From the NCBI GenBank assembly GCA_026014615.1, contig JAOZHZ010000019.1:1-64000 (forward strand): a DNA stretch of 64,000 nucleotides. The letters are read 5' to 3'. Every line of letters begins with the position of its first letter. Positions within the stretch are counted from its first letter, which is position 1. The stretch comes from Candidatus Bathyarchaeota archaeon (lineage in GTDB: Archaea; Thermoproteota; Bathyarchaeia; Bathyarchaeales; Bathycorpusculaceae). Both the position numbers and the translations under genes were made by a program. This document shows, one piece after another, positions 28,668 to 58,696 of the stretch. The notes below the pieces were generated by a model that was given only the letters and a program-made list of their open reading frames with translations, did no database searches and was not told the DNA's origin.

Positions 28668-29516
28668 TTATTTTGGTTTTTTGAATATTTGGTAGCCTTC
28701 TATTTCTGTGAATTTGGTGAAGCCTGCTTCGGTGAGGTCGCATATTTCTTTTAGTGTTGTTGGTGTGCCGAGTTGTACGGTTCTTGAGATGTATTCATCG
28801 TTTGAAAAGTTTATCAGGTGTGTATAGATTAAGGTGTGTTCGATGCGTTTATGCCCCATTTGTTGTTTAACTAACAGAATGTCTTTAGTTTTTGCGTAGA
28901 GCATTGTTGCGAAGTAGTGCCTTAAGTCGTATAATCTATATTTTATGAGTTCTGGTCGGTTTAGTTTTTTTGCTGTGCTGTTTCTGCCTCTTGTCCATGC
29001 TCTGCATTGGTCATGGGGTGCTGGAAAAAGGGTTTTGCTTGTGTTTTTTGTGATATATGTTTTAAGTAGTGCTAAGGTTGAATCTGTAAGTTTTAGGATT
29101 CGTGGATTTCCTCTTTTACATGCTTTGGCGTTTATGGTGCCTTTTTCTAAGTCTATGTTTTTTAGTGTGCTTCTGTGTAGCTCTATTGGTCGTAATCCTG
29201 TTTCTTTAAGAATGGTAAATATAGTTGCCCATTTTCTGTGGAATGACGATATTATTATGTTTGCTTCTTCGTTGCTTGGTACGTTTGGTAATCTCTCTTC
29301 TTTTTGAAAATAGGGTATATCCCAGTTTAGTCCAGTGTGTGTAACATAGCGGTTATATGCCATCGCTAACCCTTCTTTGTATGCGTTGCTTGCTTCATAA
29401 TTGATTATGTAGTCTTTGCAGATTTGTGGGATTTCTAAGCAGGTGTTTCTGTCGAGAAATTTCAAGCGTCTAACTGTGCATATGATTGTGCCTTCGGCGT
29501 TTCCTTTGGCTTTCAT
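28668..29516 (-). CDS. int: Tyrosine site-specific integrase
   Basis: A 282-residue tyrosine recombinase. The N-terminal SAM-like core-binding domain is in residues 1-85. The catalytic domain shows the first Arg in LKETGLRPIELH, the second Arg/His in RLYDLRHYFATMLY, MGHKRIEHT, and the nucleophile Tyr in LIYTHL. The residue before DLRH is Tyr rather than His, common in archaeal integrases. The gene lies 53 bases from the tRNA-Leu 3' end and reads away from it, the usual layout for an element integrated into the 3' part of a tRNA. The gene appears intact, so excision may still be possible. Confidence 0.85.
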   Translation of the reverse strand: MKAKGNAEGTIICTVRRLKFLDRNTCLEIPQICKDYIINYEASNAYKEGLAMAYNRYVTHTGLNWDIPYFQKEERLPNVPSNEEANIIISSFHRKWATIFTILKETGLRPIELHRSTLKNIDLEKGTINAKACKRGNPRILKLTDSTLALLKTYITKNTSKTLFPAPHDQCRAWTRGRNSTAKKLNRPELIKYRLYDLRHYFATMLYAKTKDILLVKQQMGHKRIEHTLIYTHLINFSNDEYISRTVQLGTPTTLKEICDLTEAGFTKFTEIEGYQIFKKPK

Positions 29517-29569: not shown

Positions 29570-29597
29570 TGGTGCTGCGGGCAGGATTCGAACCTGC
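29570..29597 (-). repeat. Right attachment site within tRNA-Leu
   Basis: The 28-bp att core, comprising the T-arm, acceptor strand, discriminator and CCA of the tRNA-Leu gene. It is identical to 24485-24512, and the integrated element lies between the two copies. Confidence 0.9.
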
Positions 29598-29691
29598 GAA
29601 CCCCTACGGGAAAGGATGTCCCATCGGGCGCCTTAAGTCAAAGCGCGTGATCTTGAGTCCTTCACCTTTGACCTGGCTTGGTTACCGCAGC
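29570..29691 (-). tRNA. tRNA-Leu(CAA) with 34-nt intron
   Basis: On the minus strand the acceptor GCTGCGG (29691-29685) pairs with CCGCAGC and is followed by A and an encoded CCA. The D-arm is ACC/GGT and the anticodon stem AAGGA/TCCTT around the loop CTCAAGA, giving anticodon CAA. The intron, 29651-29618, sits at the canonical position 37/38. A long variable arm (CCC/GGG stem) and T-arm GCAGG/CCTGC complete a class II tRNA of 88 bases after splicing. The gene is the integration target of the adjacent element and is left functional. Confidence 0.93.
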
Positions 29692-44869: not shown

Positions 44870-45118
44870 TTACTTGATTTTGGCTTTCAGCTCCGCATTC
44901 TCCTTCTGCAACATCAAAATCGTTGTCGACATAGCCTTAACAGCATTAAGCAAATCACTCTGGGAAAGGGCAGCGTTATTCGTACGTGTTTTGGGAATAC
45001 TGGTTTGCTGTTGCAGGTCAGGGGAAATTTTGACGTTTTGCAGGGGCATATTTTGGAGTGTTCTTCTGTTAACAGCAGCATTTTTGGTCCTGTTTAATCG
45101 TATGTTATTCACGGTCAT
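44870..45118 (-). CDS. Small coiled-coil protein coupled to the radical SAM gene
   Basis: An 82-residue protein. The first half is polar and basic (NNIRLNRTKNAAVNRRTLQN). The second half forms an amphipathic helix with coiled-coil heptads (ILMLQKENAELKAKIK). AGGAGGTG lies inside the end of the radical SAM gene and the two overlap by 14 bases, so expression is coupled. No known RiPP recognition-element fold is seen. Its position suggests a partner or scaffold for the maturase. Confidence 0.6.
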   Translation of the reverse strand: MTVNNIRLNRTKNAAVNRRTLQNMPLQNVKISPDLQQQTSIPKTRTNNAALSQSDLLNAVKAMSTTILMLQKENAELKAKIK

Positions 45119-46295
45119 GCACCTCCTGCGCGATAGGCTGATTCTTTTTTAGGTTCTGTTGGTTTGGAGTTTGCTGCTGGGGGGTTTTATACAGTTTCTG
45201 GAAGGTAGGATTGTTCTGCAGGGATCGGCATAGGTCGCTGAAAACTTCTGTTATCAGTTGTTTGATTGTGCAGAACGCCGAGGGGTTCACGTGGGGTAAA
45301 CCGAAGACGTCGTAGTTTTGGGCAATACAGCCGCCTATGCAGTTGTTCTTATAGTTACAGTTCAAGCATTTTGTAGGAACCTCACAGTAGGGCGCTACAC
45401 TCTGCCAATTTTTGATCCATTCCAAGCGACTCGGCGCAAAACCATTGAATATGTCACCTATCTTTATTTCATGAGAGTCAACGAATCTGTGGCAAGGATA
45501 AATTGAGCCGTCATAGTCAACTGACATTCCGCCTTGCCCCAACCCGCATCTTGAATGCCAAGTCTTCCTCGTCTGAGTAATTGCTGCGTTTGCGTCACGA
45601 ACAAACATACTAAACACCGGAATACCCTGTTCCATCCATTTTTTGTAGTACCCACGAAAGATTTCAAGTTCCTGCCTAAGGTTCGCCAAGTCTTGAGGAG
45701 TCCACTCCACTTCATAGACCATGTCCACAGCAAGGCTGGTTAGGTTGTATTCTTCGACGAAAGATTTTATGGCGTCTGCTAGCCCCTTCACGGTGGACGG
45801 CGTTACTGTCCAACGCAGTTGCGGCGCATTTTTGAAATGCTTCTTTAGCAGCGAAAAGCCTCGCCAAGCATCTTCCCAACTACCTTTCCCATTCGGGTAA
45901 ATACGGTTGATATCATGACTGCTTTTTGGTCCATCAATAGAAACGGTAACGCCGAAATCGTGTTCTTTCATCCACAAAGCCATATCTTCAGTTACCAAGG
46001 TACAGTTTGTAGTCACACCGAACCTCCATTTGTGTCCCTCTGCACGGCTTTTCTCAACTATGTATTTCATCAGCTCAAAGTTGCAAAATGGCTCGGCACC
46101 AAAAAACCACAGACCCCCGTTTGGATCCAAGTTTTGGGCACAAAAGCGTATGAGTTGATCAGCAGTCTGTTTTGTCATTTTTGCTCGAGTTAGGTTTTGG
46201 TTGAGTTTATAGACAAAGCAGTATTTGCATCTAAGGTTACACTCGCTAGTGACCCAAACGGTCATTTCTTTGATTTTCGCCGGCAGATTAAGCAT
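45105..46295 (-). CDS. Radical SAM/SPASM peptide maturase
   Basis: A 396-residue radical SAM enzyme. The SAM cluster motif is C19-x3-C23-x2-C26 (CNLRCKYC). The SPASM/twitch region after about residue 250 has CGLGQGGMSVDYDGSIYPC and a final cluster CLNCNYKNNCIGGC, giving enough Cys for two auxiliary clusters. Such enzymes form thioether or carbon-carbon crosslinks in ribosomal peptides or activate sulfatases (anSME). The neighbouring Cys-rich protein makes a peptide-modifying role likely. It overlaps the upstream small gene by eight bases and the downstream one by 14. Confidence 0.85.
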   Translation of the reverse strand: MLNLPAKIKEMTVWVTSECNLRCKYCFVYKLNQNLTRAKMTKQTADQLIRFCAQNLDPNGGLWFFGAEPFCNFELMKYIVEKSRAEGHKWRFGVTTNCTLVTEDMALWMKEHDFGVTVSIDGPKSSHDINRIYPNGKGSWEDAWRGFSLLKKHFKNAPQLRWTVTPSTVKGLADAIKSFVEEYNLTSLAVDMVYEVEWTPQDLANLRQELEIFRGYYKKWMEQGIPVFSMFVRDANAAITQTRKTWHSRCGLGQGGMSVDYDGSIYPCHRFVDSHEIKIGDIFNGFAPSRLEWIKNWQSVAPYCEVPTKCLNCNYKNNCIGGCIAQNYDVFGLPHVNPSAFCTIKQLITEVFSDLCRSLQNNPTFQKLYKTPQQQTPNQQNLKKNQPIAQEVHDRE

Positions 46296-46476
46296 GTAAA
46301 GTCTTCCTCTTTTGTGGTTGGGGAACCAAGCCTAACGCAATCAAAGACTCAAGTACAATCTCCTTAACCCGTTGCTCAGACAAAGACTGCCCAAACTGAG
46401 ACGGAGGCTTTGGAGGAAACTTCGATTGATTACAGCTCTGATTTGATTGATTGTTCACGCATTTTTTACTCATCAT
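46288..46476 (-). CDS. Small protein upstream of maturase, possible precursor or carrier
   Basis: A 62-residue protein from ATG 46476, which has GAAGGAG upstream. The N-terminus is Asn/Ser/Cys-rich (KKCVNNQSNQSCNQS) and followed by a Pro stretch. The C-terminal half is a predicted helix (SEQRVKEIVLESLIALGLVP). It lies between the Cys-rich protein gene and the maturase and overlaps the latter. It could be a short modified peptide with its two Cys as targets, a leader-like recognition protein or a chaperone. No family is recognised. Confidence 0.55.
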   Translation of the reverse strand: MMSKKCVNNQSNQSCNQSKFPPKPPSQFGQSLSEQRVKEIVLESLIALGLVPQPQKRKTLHA

Positions 46477-46500
46477 ACCGCACTCCTTCAATGCTAACCA

Positions 46501-48090
46501 CTACTGAGCCATAAGACAACTCCAAAGACAAGGCATCTGACACATCATACAAGGCGACATACAAGACACCTCACAGGCAGTCTCACAAGTCACTTCACAG
46601 CCAGTTTGACAACTCAGCTCACAGGTGGTTTGGCAAGTGTTACATGTTTGGCATGAAAGCTGACAAGCAGTCATACACGTCCATTGACAAGACATCTGAC
46701 AAGACTCACACGGAGCTTGACAAAAAACTTCACAGCCAGTTTGACAATCATAACATGATTCACATGAAACTTCACAGCCAACTTGACAATCTTGGCATGA
46801 GTAGCATGATTCACATGAAACTTCACAGCCAGCTTGACACGTTGTTTCACACCCGCCACAACCTGTGAAATATGCATCAATACGATGGTGCGTCGTAACA
46901 TTATAGAAGGTGTAAGTGTTGATTGCTCCTTGTGGCACTCCATCTACGTCTACATGGTCAATCTGGTAGCCAACAGACGGTGAAATGTTGAAAGTTTGGT
47001 TTTGGTTATAGCTGACTGTGACTGTTCCTGATGGAGTTATTGTTCCTCCTGCTCCTGCGGTTGCAAGTATGTAAACATAAACAGGATCCGTTACATAGAC
47101 GCGGTAAATGTTAATTCCACCCTCGTCATCAAGCAGAACGGGGACATCGCTGTTGTTCACTATTTTTACTGTGTTAGGTGCCGTATCATTGTAGATTGTT
47201 CCAGTATTCAGCAAGTTATAGCTTGGCGCTAAACCATTGCCTTGTGTCTTGCTGAGGTAGTAGGTGATAAATTGAGTGCCGTTTATGTAGGCGGTTAAGG
47301 AAACATCCTCATTTTCGCTTGGTCCCAGGGGAACCATTTGGTTGAAGTTGAAAAGACAGATTTGTCCTTGTTGGTAGTTGCCGCTGGTGTAGGTTGGTGA
47401 CCAATTAAAGACCCACTCCATACAGCCTCCCGGTTCTATTGTAGTGTTGGCAGCAGTGGGGACGCTAAATCCTGAGACACTACGACGCCCAGTGGTTTCG
47501 TAGCGGCATGGATAATCAACCCGCAAAGTATCCAAGTTTCCATCTGATCCGTGATCTGTTCCAATTCTACATCTAATAGGGTTACAAGCAGTAGAGCCGT
47601 CGCACAAGTCCACAGGAGATTGGCAACTTAGATCGCACATTTCATACGCTCTAAAAATTTGGAAATCAAAGATAGTAACAGTTGAAGTGTTATTTGTGTT
47701 ATGTATAACGAAAGTGTTCAGCCCTACGTCCCGATAGCCTGGGTGTTGGGATACATCATAACCTTGCCAAGCGCCGTGTCCAGCAAGGCGACTAAGGTAA
47801 CAACCGTCTAGTTGGACACCATTAACCGTATACTCCAAATTAATATCTTGATCAGGTGTAGTGTTGTTTGCATATGACAGGAAAAGAAAGTTACACCAAT
47901 CTTGTCTTTGGTAGCACCTTGGTTCTGTGCATGTGAAGGTTATTGTTGTATATCCATTTGGGGGTATCGTGTAGTTAGGTCCACTCGGGTATCCCCAGTA
48001 AGTTACTCCTCGACTGCCGTCAAATGGAGAACCTGTTTCACACTGATAGCCATAATATGTACTAATTGTGGTTGATAAAGTACATGACAT
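46501..48090 (-). CDS. Large protein with C-terminal cysteine ladder, putative radical SAM substrate
   Basis: 529 residues without a signal peptide. Residues about 1-330 hold two related beta-sandwich-like domains (FTCTEPRCYQRQDWCNFLF and MEWVFNWSP...ICLFNFNQ). Residues about 340-408 are a divergent InlB B-repeat (GGTITPSGTVTVSYNQNQTF). Residues 410-529 contain 32 Cys in 120 positions. All 31 gaps between successive Cys are three or four residues (ten threes, 21 fours, mean 3.7). The gene lies 24 bases before the small protein and maturase genes on the same strand. Maturation of this tail by the radical SAM enzyme is the favoured inference; a metal-binding role is the alternative. Confidence 0.75.
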   Translation of the reverse strand: MSCTLSTTISTYYGYQCETGSPFDGSRGVTYWGYPSGPNYTIPPNGYTTITFTCTEPRCYQRQDWCNFLFLSYANNTTPDQDINLEYTVNGVQLDGCYLSRLAGHGAWQGYDVSQHPGYRDVGLNTFVIHNTNNTSTVTIFDFQIFRAYEMCDLSCQSPVDLCDGSTACNPIRCRIGTDHGSDGNLDTLRVDYPCRYETTGRRSVSGFSVPTAANTTIEPGGCMEWVFNWSPTYTSGNYQQGQICLFNFNQMVPLGPSENEDVSLTAYINGTQFITYYLSKTQGNGLAPSYNLLNTGTIYNDTAPNTVKIVNNSDVPVLLDDEGGINIYRVYVTDPVYVYILATAGAGGTITPSGTVTVSYNQNQTFNISPSVGYQIDHVDVDGVPQGAINTYTFYNVTTHHRIDAYFTGCGGCETTCQAGCEVSCESCYSCQDCQVGCEVSCESCYDCQTGCEVFCQAPCESCQMSCQWTCMTACQLSCQTCNTCQTTCELSCQTGCEVTCETACEVSCMSPCMMCQMPCLWSCLMAQ

Positions 48091-48351: not shown

Positions 48352-49635
48352 TCACGAATAGGCAGGATGTTTTCTTCTGATGGTAAATAAAATTGTGCAT
48401 GCAGCGCCTATTAACAAAGCCAGTGCCATCACTGAGGAAAACTCTGGAACGGTAGGGGAAGCGTTTGTATTGTGTGAAGGTAAAAATTCGTCCGCAATAA
48501 AGGCGTAAACAGTGTGGTCTGAGGAGCCTACGTAGACTACGCCATCAACAACTGCGGGAGACGAATCAACAACAGAGCCAGTTGTGTAATTCCAGAGCTT
48601 AACCCCATTTGTAGCGTTCAAAGCATACACATTGTAATCACCTGAACCGATATAGACTACGCCATCAACGACAGCAGGAGACGAATAAACAGCGCTTCCA
48701 TTTATAGTATAATTCCAAATTTTTATCCCGTTGGTGGCATTCAACGCATAAACATTTCGGTCGTTTGAGCCTATGTATACCACGCCGTTAACTACTGTCG
48801 GCGATGTGTCGTCAACATAGTCGCCAGTGGTGTATTTCCATATTCTTTGTCCATTTGACGCATTCAAAGCATACACATTACTGTCAAATGCACCTATATA
48901 GAGCACACCGTCAACAACTGCGGGAGACGAATCAACGTGGCGGTCTAAGCGAGGATAATCACCCGTTGTGTAGCTCCATATTTTTTGTCCGTTTGAGGCG
49001 TTCAAAGCGTAAATATCGCCATCCCTTGAACCAAAATAGACCATGCCGTTTGCAACAGCAGGCGATGAATAAACAATACTGTGTTCTTTTTCTGTGTTGT
49101 ATTTCCATATTTTTTGTCCGTTTGTGGCGTTTAGGGCGTAAACGTTGCTGTCTGATGTGCCGATGTAGAGCACGCCGGCAACTACGGCGGGGGAAGAAGA
49201 AGTTATTGCTGTGTTGTAGTGCCATATTTTGGTGCCTGTTGAAGCGTTAAGAGCATAAACTCCCGAAGAACCCACATACACTACACCATCAACAACGGCA
49301 GGAGACGAACTAACATGACCGCCGGTTGTGTAATTCCAAATTTTGTGTCCGTTTGCAGCGTTTAAAGCGTAAATGTTATCGTCAAGTGAACCTACGTATA
49401 CTACGCCATCAATAACGGCAGGAGACGACAAAACCGATCCTTCGGTGGTGTATTTCCAAGTTTGGGTGGGCGCGTAGGTTAAGTTGCCGACAGCGCCGCT
49501 GTGAGATGGGTCATAGCGAAACATTGGCCAATCGGCATACGCAAAAGGAAGCACAACTATGATAGAAAGAAAAACTACAAAGACAAACGCTGTTGCCCTG
49601 AGCAGATTACTCATGCGCCTCAATCGCCTCATCAT
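48352..49635 (-). CDS. Secreted PQQ-like beta-propeller with C-terminal anchor
   Basis: 427 residues: a signal peptide (LRATAFVFVVFLSIIVVLPFAYA), eight or nine repeats of about 40 residues of the type SPAVVDGVVYVGS...YALNATNGxKIWNYTT, then a linker with VPEFSSVMALALLIGAACTI and a basic end. The repeats form a BamB/PQQ-dehydrogenase-like propeller on the cell surface. The terminal Pro-Glu-Phe plus helix plus basic residues recurs in other surface proteins in this window and may be a sorting signal. No PQQ ligand set is evident, so a binding or scaffold role is likelier than catalysis. Confidence 0.82.
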   Translation of the reverse strand: MMRRLRRMSNLLRATAFVFVVFLSIIVVLPFAYADWPMFRYDPSHSGAVGNLTYAPTQTWKYTTEGSVLSSPAVIDGVVYVGSLDDNIYALNAANGHKIWNYTTGGHVSSSPAVVDGVVYVGSSGVYALNASTGTKIWHYNTAITSSSPAVVAGVLYIGTSDSNVYALNATNGQKIWKYNTEKEHSIVYSSPAVANGMVYFGSRDGDIYALNASNGQKIWSYTTGDYPRLDRHVDSSPAVVDGVLYIGAFDSNVYALNASNGQRIWKYTTGDYVDDTSPTVVNGVVYIGSNDRNVYALNATNGIKIWNYTINGSAVYSSPAVVDGVVYIGSGDYNVYALNATNGVKLWNYTTGSVVDSSPAVVDGVVYVGSSDHTVYAFIADEFLPSHNTNASPTVPEFSSVMALALLIGAACTILFTIRRKHPAYS

Positions 49636-50243: not shown

Positions 50244-51566
50244 GTGGTTGAAATCAGTTATGAAGCGCTAAAGGTGAGTCAGTTGGGCGACAATACAAAT
50301 AAACCAAAAAATGACCCGTCAAAACTTAGAATCTTATGGCACAGTGTAGCTCCATGGATTGCTTCTGGCTATGGCAAAACAACAAAGGAGATATGCACAA
50401 GATTGCCGAAATACGGATTTAAAGTAATTATCTCAGCATACTATGGTGCCGAGCCAGGCGGAATTCCCCCTTACCAAGTCCCCGTTTTACCCTCAAAAGA
50501 GGGATCTTTCGGCATAGCCTCTGCCGCTAGATATTGTAGACAATACAATGTAGACATGGGCTTGCTATTTACAGACTGGTGGGCATTCAGCGATTTTCCC
50601 AAAATTATTCCCCATGCAACTCTGTACGGCCCCATGGATCAGATGAGCTACCCCGAGGAAATTATGAGCTTTACACGGGAATATTATAAAATTATAGGGT
50701 TGTGCAAATGGCAACAAAAATGCTTAGCAGACGCAGGAATAAAATCGGACTACATTTATCATGGGGTTGACACGAACGTATTTAAGCCCACGAACAAGAA
50801 AAATGAACGAAAGAAATTCGGCATTAACGAAGACGACATTTTTATCTTCGGAACAATAGCGGCCAATGGTGACAAAGAAGATAGAAAAAGTCATAGCAGA
50901 TCAATGAAGGCAATGAAATACTTCTTAGATCAAAACCCTGACGTCAAAAATATCATTTGGTTATACCACACCAGCCCCACCGACTCAAGAGGCATGCCCT
51001 TACTTTCAATTGCACACAAACTTGGACTAGACAAAATAATTAGGTTCATGGACCCGAATATGGCAAACACCATGCTCACGGAAGAAGACTTGGCATCATT
51101 AATGAATTGCTTTGACGTACATTTGCTCTGCAGTAAACGTGAAGGGTTCGGCATGCCCATATTAGAGACACAAGCTTGCGGGGTACCTAACATATGCCAT
51201 GACGCCACCAGTATGACAGAATTAGTCAAAGGTCACGGATGGCTATGTAAGTCATTGAGCCACGGGTTAAACTTTGAAACCACACCTATTAACACGGAAA
51301 CTGCATCTCCGGATGTTTACGACATTGCCAGTTGCATCGAGGACGCATACTTTCATCCAGATAAAGTGAAAAAATATGGAGCCGATTCTAGGACATTTGC
51401 ATTGCCATTTGACTGGGATGATTTAGTAAAGAACCGCTGGGTTCCTATACTGGATGAACTATCAGATAAAATTAGAGCGGAGCGGAAGGAACATGAAATG
51501 CTTGGCGATAACCCCCAAAAGGATGCCTATTTTGAGCAACTGTACACGCAAGCCATGAAGCCGTAA
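50244..51566 (+). CDS. Glycosyltransferase, GT4-like
   Basis: A 440-residue GT-B fold protein. The N-terminal half begins LRILWHSVAPWIASGYGKTT. The C-terminal nucleotide-sugar domain has NCFDVHLLCSKREGFGMPILETQACGVPNI, with the E-x7-E motif of GT4 enzymes. GTG start with GGAG just before it. It is followed nine bases later by the fused methyltransferase-GT2 gene, so the two probably work on the same surface glycan or on glycosylation of the neighbouring surface proteins. Confidence 0.8.
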   Translation: MVEISYEALKVSQLGDNTNKPKNDPSKLRILWHSVAPWIASGYGKTTKEICTRLPKYGFKVIISAYYGAEPGGIPPYQVPVLPSKEGSFGIASAARYCRQYNVDMGLLFTDWWAFSDFPKIIPHATLYGPMDQMSYPEEIMSFTREYYKIIGLCKWQQKCLADAGIKSDYIYHGVDTNVFKPTNKKNERKKFGINEDDIFIFGTIAANGDKEDRKSHSRSMKAMKYFLDQNPDVKNIIWLYHTSPTDSRGMPLLSIAHKLGLDKIIRFMDPNMANTMLTEEDLASLMNCFDVHLLCSKREGFGMPILETQACGVPNICHDATSMTELVKGHGWLCKSLSHGLNFETTPINTETASPDVYDIASCIEDAYFHPDKVKKYGADSRTFALPFDWDDLVKNRWVPILDELSDKIRAERKEHEMLGDNPQKDAYFEQLYTQAMKP

Positions 51567-55420: not shown

Positions 55421-58400
55421 TTAAGGGGTAACTGAGACTGAGTCTACGAAAAGATTTGCGCTATAGCCACTTTCGTATAAGGCAGCAATTGCTATGTATC
55501 TGAAGTCGCTAGGATAATTGCCGCAGTTAATCCAATAGGGCGAACTGGATGTTATCGTTTGATTACTGACTGGAACCCAATCGTTGTTTGCATTGTAAGA
55601 CACATATACGTGGATGTGTGTCCAGTATCCGGGGGCAGAGTAGCCGTAGATTTTAATGTTGCCGTGTGCGGGAGCATTCATTGCTCCAACTATGTTTCCT
55701 CCATCTCCAGAGTTTCCACCGTATATTTGCACGAAGTTTGCGTTGTTTGAACTGCCCACGAGTCCGTTCGGGTTATTGATAGCTCCGTTGCCATAAGTGG
55801 TTGGCTGCGGAACAATGCTTGATACCCAGTAATTAGTCGGCGGGTTTTGGACGGTTACTGTATTATAGCTAGCGGCGCCACTCCATGCATTATTTGTGTC
55901 TTTGGCTCTTACGGTGACGTTCTTTGTTCCTGGGGAACTCCATGTGTGAGAAGCTGACGCTGCGGTTCCGCTGGTATATGGACCCACTGTTGTTGTGGTG
56001 CCATCATTCCAGTTAAACTCGTATGTAATGTTTTGGTCTTCGGGGTCTGTTGATGTAGCATAAAATGGGCCACAACTTACGTTGACGGTTCCTATTGTGG
56101 GTCCACTAAGCGATGAAGGCGTGCTGGGTGGATTATTGCTTGGGTCAAAGCTGAAGTATGCTCTGATTCCCTTCAGATTAGTGATATTGTTGAATGTGTA
56201 GTTGCTAATTGCCCCTTGTGAAACATAGTGGAGATTGCCATTTTCAAATTCCTCTGCGACTTCGACATCGTCTATACGGTAATTCGTGTTCGGCGTAATG
56301 GTGAACGTTTTGCTCTCTCCATAATCCACTTGAACTTGTCCTGAAGGCGAAATTGCGCCCCCTTCTTGAGCCACTGAAGCTTCAATGGTTAGGTAAACTG
56401 GCGATGTATTGTAAACGCGATAAATGTCAATTCGACCTCCTTTTTGGCAAACGGGCGGGCAAGGTTCTTCATCACAGCCATCACAGAGCACGAGATCAAC
56501 TCCAGCATTTGGGTCTACCGTTACAAATAAGCCATTAACTTCGTTTGGGCTGTCATTGTAATATTCCGATAGTATTGGGTGGGTTGCAAGATCAATTCCG
56601 TGAGCTATATGACGAACGTTGTTGTCGTCCTGCCCTTTAGGGTGGTAAAAAGCGACCCATGGACTACTATTAAGTTTAACCCAAAAAGGGATATCGTTGT
56701 TTGGAGCCATTTTCGCATTATATGGGGCGTCGATATTAGCGGTTGTGATATTGTTGAAGTTGAAAAAGCAGTGCATTTTATCGACGTAATCGCTGGCAGG
56801 GTCCGGCGGATTTATCCACATCCAAGAGATGTATGGATCGCTTGGCGACATCGATTTTATATGGTCGTCTGGACCAAATTTGGTGATACTTACACCACCA
56901 CAGCTCTTGTAGTTACATGGATAATCTTGTCTTGTGGGATCAAGTTGGTCATTCTCGTCTATTGCGTATTGATGTTCCTGTCTACATTCAGGAGCTGATT
57001 CACAAGGGCCTCCATCGCAGGCATTTTGCCCGTCGCACGGCAGATAGCACATTGGATATCCTAAAACAACCATCAAGCCTTTTATTGTGACATTGACATA
57101 GGGGTCCTCGTTAACAAATTTAAGCTCATTAGACCCTGCTCCAGGTTCCTTCAAAATATAAGTTTCATTAATTTTTGTTTGAGCAAAGTCAAAAACCTCT
57201 GTTAAGTCGTGACCTGCTTTCCTACTGTGCCAAGTTGCATGAGCGACATTTTCAAAATCATTTAGATAAAGTTCTATGGGACCAACGTCGTTATTTGGAG
57301 AATCTGGGTCGTTGGGGTTAGTGCTGACTTCGTAGATAACATTGCAGAAATCAGATTTTGGGGGATATTGTTGCTGGTAGCATTGTGGCTGCGTTGCAGT
57401 GAATTTGAAAGTTTTGGTGCTATTGGGGTTGTTTTCGCCACCATATTCTAAAGTGAAATCTGGGATTGGGCCCCAAATCGTTGTTCCCTTTCCGCCCTTT
57501 GCTCCTTCCGCAGGGTTGCAATTATTGTCACAGTTAAAATAAGGACTGCTGCCGTTCATACCGCATCCTGAGAAGGCTGCTTGTACGTCGTGGTTGCTGT
57601 CCATTGTGATTATTATGGGGTTATCAGTGTTCGTTTGTTCATCTACAGTCAGGTAATCAAAGGCGTAACCAACGTCTGCCGTGGCAGCTACCTGAACGTT
57701 AGCACCTGGGCTGTAGACTTGTGTACCTGGGGCAGGGGTGGTCGTGCCTCCATTTTCTGTTGAAATTTTTAGAATACAGGTGTTTGGGTCCTGAGCAAAA
57801 TCTGCTGTAATAGTGTGGTTTGCTGTGACGTTTGAGAATGTGTAACTGCTTATTGCGCCTTGACTTACGCTGTCTACTTGGACATCAACTATGTGGTATC
57901 CGATGTTTGGAATTATGTTAAAGGTTTGGTTACTTCCGTAGTTTACTGTTTGTGCAGTACTGGGTGAAATCGAGCCATTATTTCCCGCTGACGGTGTTAA
58001 AGTATAGGTGTTGATTGCGGAGGTAACCGAAATGGTGTGCGTTGTTGTGACGTTGTTGAAGGTGTAGCTTGATATTGCTCCTTGGTCGACCGTATCAACG
58101 TAGACGTGGGTTATGTGGTATCCTGTGTTTGCTGAGATATTGAATAGTTGGTTGTCGCCAGTGTTCACCAGAACGGTTCCTGAAGGCGTAATTGTTGAAC
58201 CAGCATCATTGGAAGCTGAAATGGCGCATCCGGGTACATACTCAGCATAAATGCTCATTGCATAGTTGTAATAAGTCAAAGGAAAATTAGTCCAAAATTG
58301 GTTAGCTGTACCTGTGTTATAACGTACTGTAAGCGTGTCAGGGCTACTTCCTGTGTTGTAGAAAAGTAACCAGTAATATGTTCCAGCTGTGAGTATGGGT

Positions 58401-58687
58401 TGAGTGTAACCATTGCTATGGCTGGACCAATATGGTGTGACCCAAGCATTCGTAAAAACATTGCGGCTAGGTGTTAACCATAAACAAGAGCTAGTTTTGA
58501 TTGCGCCATTGTTATCATTATATATGCCTATCTGTACGTAGTCGCCAGCGTGAACTACTCCGCCAATGTAACAATGTATGTTGGCTAACAACCCGTTTTC
58601 GGGGGCTTGAAACCGGCAGGCAACTGCGCGGTTAGGCCCTACTGAAAATGATGATGAACCTAATGTTGTGTACCCCATTGTGGCCAT
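55421..58687 (-). CDS. Giant multidomain protein, paralogue of the Cys-ladder protein
   Basis: 1,089 residues with no signal peptide. It opens with a jelly-roll-like domain (about 1-150), followed by three divergent InlB B-repeats (SPSTAQTVNYGSNQTFNI type). A core then matches the Cys-ladder protein segment by segment: QPQCYQQQYPPKSDFC, CDGQNACDGGPC, QDYPCNYKSCG and IDIYRVYNTSPVYLTIEAS. Next are another B-repeat, a PKD domain (SASHTWSSPGTKNVTVRAKD) and a discoidin-like C-terminal domain. The cysteine-ladder tail is absent. Probably an extracellular or surface assembly protein, but the export route is unclear. Confidence 0.7.
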   Translation of the reverse strand: MATMGYTTLGSSSFSVGPNRAVACRFQAPENGLLANIHCYIGGVVHAGDYVQIGIYNDNNGAIKTSSCLWLTPSRNVFTNAWVTPYWSSHSNGYTQPILTAGTYYWLLFYNTGSSPDTLTVRYNTGTANQFWTNFPLTYYNYAMSIYAEYVPGCAISASNDAGSTITPSGTVLVNTGDNQLFNISANTGYHITHVYVDTVDQGAISSYTFNNVTTTHTISVTSAINTYTLTPSAGNNGSISPSTAQTVNYGSNQTFNIIPNIGYHIVDVQVDSVSQGAISSYTFSNVTANHTITADFAQDPNTCILKISTENGGTTTPAPGTQVYSPGANVQVAATADVGYAFDYLTVDEQTNTDNPIIITMDSNHDVQAAFSGCGMNGSSPYFNCDNNCNPAEGAKGGKGTTIWGPIPDFTLEYGGENNPNSTKTFKFTATQPQCYQQQYPPKSDFCNVIYEVSTNPNDPDSPNNDVGPIELYLNDFENVAHATWHSRKAGHDLTEVFDFAQTKINETYILKEPGAGSNELKFVNEDPYVNVTIKGLMVVLGYPMCYLPCDGQNACDGGPCESAPECRQEHQYAIDENDQLDPTRQDYPCNYKSCGGVSITKFGPDDHIKSMSPSDPYISWMWINPPDPASDYVDKMHCFFNFNNITTANIDAPYNAKMAPNNDIPFWVKLNSSPWVAFYHPKGQDDNNVRHIAHGIDLATHPILSEYYNDSPNEVNGLFVTVDPNAGVDLVLCDGCDEEPCPPVCQKGGRIDIYRVYNTSPVYLTIEASVAQEGGAISPSGQVQVDYGESKTFTITPNTNYRIDDVEVAEEFENGNLHYVSQGAISNYTFNNITNLKGIRAYFSFDPSNNPPSTPSSLSGPTIGTVNVSCGPFYATSTDPEDQNITYEFNWNDGTTTTVGPYTSGTAASASHTWSSPGTKNVTVRAKDTNNAWSGAASYNTVTVQNPPTNYWVSSIVPQPTTYGNGAINNPNGLVGSSNNANFVQIYGGNSGDGGNIVGAMNAPAHGNIKIYGYSAPGYWTHIHVYVSYNANNDWVPVSNQTITSSSPYWINCGNYPSDFRYIAIAALYESGYSANLFVDSVSVTP

Positions 58688-58696
58688 ATTAAACAC

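Follow-up and report, generated by a model that had tools for sequence, protein, structure and literature searches.

The closest described parallels to the locus considered here are radical-SAM enzymes that form, or are presumed to form, thioethers on their substrates. According to passages of one source, PapB tolerates Cys-Xn-Asp units with n anywhere from 0 to 6, as well as in-line and nested links, and forms six thioethers on one peptide (PMC9413430). CteB, whose structure is 5WGG, is presented in parts of another source as a presumed thioether-forming enzyme, or sactisynthase, and the definition of the SPASM cysteine motif adopted below is the one in those same parts (PMC6231123). A different type of parallel is provided by NCBIfam, where TIGR04114, TIGR04117 and TIGR04118 are named as CXXX-repeat radical-SAM targets and TIGR04115 as their maturase, so that this kind of system had already been predicted; literature searches under the CXXX-repeat and TIGR names found no study. 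Metallothionein-like proteins are Cys-dense too, with a thiol every few residues, a less regular spacing and no known radical-SAM partner.

The original prediction held that no described protein has an arrangement as regular as that of the cysteine 'ladder' discussed here, which needs qualifying in view of the three NCBIfam target models, though the ladder itself matches none of them. In the literature searched, no title describing the pairing of such a ladder with a radical-SAM enzyme was found, and the passages checked are silent on it.

The ladder and its carrier protein

Within the 64,000 nucleotides of Bathyarchaeia DNA analysed (the window), the minus strand at 46504-46863 encodes 120 residues with 32 cysteines, and, as first reported, all 31 intervals between successive cysteines are three or four residues (four in 21 cases, three in the other 10), with a mean of 3.677. 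The minus strand is the coding strand, the plus strand in that phase being interrupted by stops. When the tail residues were shuffled 2000 times, no run at such intervals exceeded 8, as against the 32 observed, which rules out chance as the source of the spacing; a run of at least 5 is present in none of the other open frames of at least 30 residues in the window. Two short DNA tandem repeats within the ladder, of 24- and 51-bp units with 78 and 83% match, indicate that duplication helped to build it. Despite these, a simple-repeat artefact was rejected for the window ladder on the grounds of synonymous codon changes. In the closest homologue, G006, all 32 tail cysteines are retained, 14 of them via a different codon, and 28 of the 81 other aligned residues differ, in a comparison where the aligner rewards Cys matches and so favours the count of those retained. 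Cys columns in the carrier region are retained in only 10 of 19 cases. To judge from such sequence comparison, the ladder cysteines look to be under selection.

Table 1. Coordinates in the window of the ladder gene, its parts, its neighbours and its paralogue
Feature	Position	Strand	Basis or remark
529-aa ladder protein	46501..48090	-	ORF; 46504-46863 encodes the final 120 residues
First beta-rich carrier domain, ~residues 1-151	47638..48090	-	AF2; Foldseek
Second beta-rich carrier domain, ~residues 190-334	47089..47523	-	AF2; family alignment
InlB-B-repeat-like beta domain, ~residues 337-409	46864..47082	-	similarity to the 1091-aa paralogue
Cys ladder proper, residues 411-525, 32 Cys, no Lys or Arg	46516..46860	-	intervals of 3 or 4
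67-aa partner peptide, 3 Cys, Pro-rich linker, helix-like end	46288..46491	-	kept between ladder and radical-SAM gene
Radical SAM/SPASM enzyme, 396 aa	45105..46295	-	8-nt overlap with partner ORF
82-aa ORF, coiled-coil-like end	44870..45118	-	14-nt overlap with radical-SAM stop
1091-aa paralogue, carrier domains, no ladder	55421..58696	-	sequence comparison

Ladders are found more widely, with lengths ranging from 7 to 89 Cys. When a gap above nine is taken to terminate a ladder, 22 archaeal-type or related ladders have 757 intervals, 493 of them three, 232 four and none five, where composition shuffles predict 7.3% fives. The remainder comprises 17 sixes, 9 sevens, 3 eights, 2 twos and a single one, and the sixes, sevens and eights are what one missing cysteine would leave. 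Of 725 residues directly following a Cys, 393 are Q or E and most of the others Y, N, V or D; the position preceding the next Cys is mainly S, T, G, A or V. Neither Lys nor Arg occurs in the nine carrier-type tails counted. The ladders of L176, L179, L182 and G249 are mostly CxxC, and the stand-alone ladders of L174, L176, L179 and L182 have a leader-like start in common. Nine phage ladders have 272 intervals, of which 239 are four, 26 three and 4 five, the residues between being mostly Ser, Gly, Thr or Asn.

From the closeness of the mean, 3.68, to the helical repeat, one continuous stripe of thiols along an alpha helix had been proposed. This did not hold up. With 100 degrees taken per residue, the window ladder has a resultant of 0.33 and the 22 ladders have anything from 0.03 to 0.76, and the mean spacing varies from 3.03 to 3.97 (3.03 to 3.72 in the 22 related ladders), so that a helix-matching value is not a family trait. 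On both counts, the low resultant and the varying mean, the helical stripe was rejected.

Neither Pfam nor NCBIfam gives a match to the 529-aa protein at E <= 1. AF2, given a 10-row alignment, draws the carrier as all-beta, with block pLDDT mostly 73-96 (residues 31-150 and 181-410); in the same model the blocks of the tail have pLDDT 26-69 and are partly drawn helical. On eight short CxxC ladders the mean pLDDT was 34.5, so that in neither case is the ladder given a confident shape. Foldseek with the model of the 529-aa protein returned beta-rich matches (BcsB, CUB and PNGase proteins) at a whole-chain TM of ~0.1-0.2, too weak to name a fold. The InlB-like domain has 53-58% identity to stretches of the 1091-aa paralogue, in which PF18998 matches are present, and is absent from six of ten aligned homologues (L164, L165, L166, L167 and both L177 rows). 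Inspection of the archaeal ladder proteins by eye showed no signal peptide.

Two genes near the ladder, by eye a PQQ-type propeller gene (48352-49635) and a glycosyltransferase-like one (50244-51566), have homologues close to ladders in two and three other loci respectively. At a distance from the ladder, an integrase-like ORF at 28668-29516, again judged by eye, adjoins a long, 119-base tRNA match at 29573-29691, and an integrated element may cover about 24.7-29.5 kb; Rfam gave tRNA as its only match in the window.

The radical-SAM partner in archaea and phages

Downstream of the ladder open frame, at a distance of 173 nt, is that of a SPASM radical-SAM enzyme, and the ORF for the partner peptide in the interval starts with TTG, 9 nt past the ladder stop. 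The 67-aa peptide ends in a conserved helix-like motif, KEIVLESLI..LVP..KRK, and in both loci of G155 the ladder protein itself ends in this motif. By eye, a similar end follows a short ladder within one small ORF in L176. In L179, from a bacterial MAG, a single ORF encodes the radical-SAM enzyme with an interrupted CxxC ladder at its N-terminus. The motif of the partner peptide is a candidate docking sequence for the maturase, which would be provided in trans in the window but in cis at other loci. The 82-aa ORF is possibly a fourth gene of the block. By eye, an ORF of like make-up comes after the radical-SAM gene of L177, and the radical-SAM frame of G171 ends in a stretch resembling it; inter-locus BLAST detected no counterpart.

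The enzyme itself has the SPASM motif, CxxxCxxC and then CX9-15GX4C..CX2CX5CX3C..C, with the cluster residues C19/C23/C26, C250/G263/C268, C310/C313/C319/C323 and C342 invariant in all nine aligned sequences. Pfam finds Radical_SAM, the SPASM model being just below its cut-off (20.2 vs 21.5 bits). The best NCBIfam model is that of PapB, NF047865, at 227 bits where the cut-off is 340 (relatives L168, L177, L176 and L179 score 231, 233, 197 and 247); a model for a quinohemoprotein amine dehydrogenase maturation protein comes second at 160 and one for the SCIFF maturase fifth at 137, and TIGR04115 gives 128 against a cut-off of 350. The nearest solved chain is 5WGG (E 5e-46), and the enzyme profile also matches the anaerobic sulfatase maturases 4K36 and 4K37. 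Since alignment to 5WGG begins at its residue 88, profile position 12, the RRE part of that chain has no counterpart in the window enzyme, and the Pfam and NCBIfam matches of the neighbouring 67-, 82- and 143-aa ORFs include no RRE that would place it among RRE-guided maturases. In the relative at L182:4172-5872, an intein that includes a LAGLIDADG domain splits the radical-SAM ORF within CxxxCxxC.

Among 256 genomes of the class, a close radical-SAM enzyme (E <= 1e-45) is present in eight, and a ladder adjoins it in all eight. Within the genus of the window the ladders have 32 Cys (window) and 33 and 50 Cys (two other genomes); four genomes of a second genus, one of them with two loci, have longest runs of 15-31; and the three ladders of G249 have runs of 44, 30 and 11. 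When two ladders by themselves served as queries against these 256 genomes, ten genomes were returned, namely those eight together with G179 and G035. G179 was discarded as a simple-repeat artefact, a microsatellite with nine copies of HLSC where a contig begins. In G035, a bin with 8% contamination, a phage-like contig has a 22-Cys ladder with a distant radical-SAM ORF 2.9 kb away; this ladder (L219:5781-6122) is of CxxC type with His, Asp and Lys between its cysteines and adjoins, by eye, a terminase-like ORF. A relative of the opposite type is G042, where a search at E <= 1e-20 gave no enzyme and where the carrier protein, on a 3.9-kb contig, ends exactly at the expected start of the ladder. 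Read from its sequence, it would be a natural negative, a carrier with neither ladder nor detected radical-SAM enzyme.

A scan of named genomes with the enzyme profile gave 24 loci, 11 of which (L169-L177, L179 and L182) have a ladder of at least 7 Cys, L169-L174 being contigs already counted among the class genomes and the ladders of L175 being the same as those of L174. None of the other 13, at identity <= 30%, has a ladder of that length. The 11 include Ca. Bathycorpusculum, Bathyarchaeota, Brockarchaeota, Ca. Lithacetigena, a bacterium with ladders of 83 and 89 Cys, and the Clostridiales-labelled contig L177. This last has an enzyme 65% identical to that of the window and archaeal-type neighbours, and is possibly mis-binned.

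When enzyme rows are ranked by score, all 13 above 200 bits have a ladder within 250 nt (nine of them built the profile, and two are one sequence). Below 200 bits a ladder is present in 10 of 39 within the stretch covered; the 29 with none there include enzymes from Campylobacter and faecal phages. A tree was built from 50 of the 52 rows, omitting L175, a duplicate, and L182, which bears the intein. In it the window enzyme is in an 11-row clade (99/99) whose members all have a ladder, and a separate clade of five phage rows (96/90) has one in 5/5. The ladder label changes 6 times on the tree vs ~16 when shuffled, a clustering that is partly selected because some phage rows came from the ladder scan. 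The pairing of ladder and enzyme is well supported by these sequence comparisons.

The pairing recurs in phages, where counts of it are biased by the derivation of some loci from the ladder scan. A homologue of the CR5 enzyme is present in 61 phage records, and ten loci of SPN3US type chosen from these (CR5, EarlPhillipIV, SPN3US, Kwan, Asesino, Huxley, SNUABM_29, STsAS, Phobos and SNUABM_11) have two ladder ORFs in every case, ~1-2 kb upstream of the CR5-type enzyme, with a second radical-SAM gene annotated in eight. In SPN3US itself the ladders come after genes 168 and 167. Passages on gp168 describe an SPN3US tail protein like phiKZ gp131, at the baseplate rim and possibly in fibres (PMC5105663), and gp163-gp167 do not appear in the main text of that source or of PMC5694885. 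At ~4.1-5.0 kb in L237-L244 and ~16.1-17.0 kb in L196/L197, ladder ORFs are often unannotated or under genes in other frames: opposite-strand annotated hypothetical genes cover them in L240, L241 and L243, while L239 and L197 each have an in-frame annotation for just one ladder ORF of the pair.

In other phages the organization differs. The 54-Cys ladder frame of L116 overlaps the enzyme frame, and the front of its ladder protein has a 42-bit match to a PHROG tail protein; L194 has four radical-SAM ORFs and then two ladder ORFs; and in L081 ladder and radical-SAM match are 2.7 kb apart. Tail-fibre-like repeats are also found next to the L182 locus. TIGR04115 is nearly reached by the enzymes of L116 (341) and L194 (the fourth, 344) vs 350. 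In L199, a faecal contig deposited as phage, a 31-Cys ladder, whose start we take to be Tat-like, adjoins a radical-SAM ORF and scores 43.5 of 50 with TIGR04117, just short. A viral ladder scan gave at least 120 stretches, mostly simple repeats. The ORFs from it with at least 20 Cys and varied units (cut 0.6) are those of L081, L099 and L116, each of whose records has a radical-SAM match; there is no such match in the record of L078, whose 23-Cys ladder has less varied units. Six further loci from the scan (L047, L077, L085, L098, L117 and L140) have varied but shorter ladders, of 8-11 Cys. Of nine phage radical-SAM records with flanks, three have long ladders, one (Phass-1) a 7-Cys run and five none. 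No ladder is near the enzyme in L193 and L195, and the L194 ladder has no match in either of their records. A second type of Cys-dense end, Cys-Asp rich with intervals of two or three, is seen at L194:5558-5983 and L193:5516-5914, directly preceding another radical-SAM ORF.

Possible nature of the ladder

The reading we favour, at a probability of about 0.62, is that the ladder is the substrate region of a structural protein modified by the radical-SAM enzyme, probably a thioether-crosslinked rod on beta-rich carriers. That the ladder is a substrate, that its links are thioethers, that the rod is stiff and that its job is structural are all things we infer. A thioether-crosslinked rod was among the original guesses, and that part has gained from a SPASM enzyme so close by and from the pairing in 13 of 13 rows; the helical stripe that went with it fails. 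The partner peptide would dock the ladder onto the enzyme (in trans for the window, in cis for relatives), and the enzyme would then act along the ladder in the cytosol, forming thioethers of the ranthionine or sactionine type between Cys sulfurs and carbon atoms of neighbouring residues. An initially floppy stretch would in this manner become a stiff polycyclic rod, presented by the beta-rich domains in front of it as the stalk of a fibre or adhesin-like protein; the corresponding genes of some phages adjoin tail genes. The tolerance of PapB for n of 0-6 implies that this type of enzyme can work along uneven spacings. PapB chemistry proper was rejected for most of the cysteines on the grounds that acids are too few, and with 13 of them (D+E) for 32 Cys the acceptor in the window ladder must mostly be another residue. 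That one chemistry serves both archaeal and phage ladders is unproven.

CxxC runs are classic metal ligands. The ladders of L176, L179, L182 and G249, being mostly of this form, would suit an unmodified thiolate rod that binds metal or Fe-S clusters, as a metallothionein-like store or an electron wire, with the radical-SAM enzyme acting elsewhere or having a minor job. However, a recurring enzyme partner, its fusion to a ladder and the joint absence of both from G042 would be unexpected on such a basis, spacing that drifts from 3 to 4 with no fixed motif does not favour it, nor does the adjacency of some phage ladders to tail genes, and we think it unlikely. Dense, evenly spaced thiols and beta-rich carrier domains would also be in keeping with an extracellular fibre locked by disulfides, neighbouring cysteines pairing after export. 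The partner enzyme is cytosolic though, no export signal is seen by eye, and homologues have odd Cys counts (33, 33 and 31), leaving this highly improbable. Neither a metal wire nor a disulfide fibre explains why the enzyme partner recurs.

A rival that retains the enzyme is that it modifies the ladder by a reaction other than thioether formation, such as epimerisation, the formation of C-C or C-O links, or the Cys oxidation that sulfatase maturases carry out. SPASM enzymes catalyse many reactions, the profile matches 4K36 and 4K37, and the residue after Cys, so often Q or E (393/725) and often Y or N, could suit other acceptors. Yet the best model, PapB, is named as a ranthipeptide maturase, CteB is a presumed sactisynthase, and the residue strictly retained is Cys itself, so such a reaction seems improbable. 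A further possibility, a functionless low-complexity expansion that happens to be beside an unrelated radical-SAM gene, could draw on the short tandem repeats in the DNA of the ladder and on lengths that range so widely (7-89 Cys). It is hardly credible given 32 of 32 cysteines kept across 14 synonymous changes, no fives among 757 intervals vs the 7.3% expected by shuffling, and recurrence next to radical-SAM genes in phages.

A broader proposal is more tentative than the rod reading itself, and the odds are somewhat against it: that archaeal and tailed-virus Cys ladders, zipped by dedicated radical-SAM enzymes into adhesin stalks or tail fibres, constitute a widespread and unrecognised class of covalent fibre. 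If so, the products would serve as stalks and fibres, and not as small antibiotics or signals, and radical-SAM stapling would build large mechanical parts, beyond small natural products, in archaea like Bathycorpusculum and in cultivated giant phages like SPN3US. It would also mean a genetically encoded, redox-proof rod of tunable length (7-89 Cys seen). With ladder and enzyme genes close together, the cultivated phages are a ready test bed. Such ladders could have been overlooked, as tails with no Lys or Arg (the nine archaeal-type ones counted) would leave tryptic proteomics nearly blind to them and as, for many ladder ORFs of phages, the annotation has either nothing or a gene in another frame or on the opposite strand.

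Comparison with known systems

Likeness to the CXXX-repeat targets and TIGR04115 is in having Cys at regular short spacing in what NCBIfam names as radical-SAM targets with a maturase. The window ladder differs in mixing CxxC and CxxxC, with Q or E after Cys, and in that 10 of its 31 intervals are three, so that cysteine is not at every fourth residue. By its sequence, the window system is a variant outside the existing CXXX-repeat models, passing none of them. With CteB and CteA (thermocellin), the relationship is that of closest solved relative, a radical-SAM enzyme with two auxiliary clusters; however, the first 87 residues of 5WGG, which include its RRE, are unmatched in the window enzyme, and CteA is a short peptide. 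PapB provides the model on which the window enzyme scores best, and its tolerance of varied spacing is a further point in common. The acceptors in PapA, though, are Asp and Glu, of which the window ladder has too few (13 for 32 Cys), and where PapA is a short leader-core peptide, the candidate substrate in the window is a large multidomain protein.
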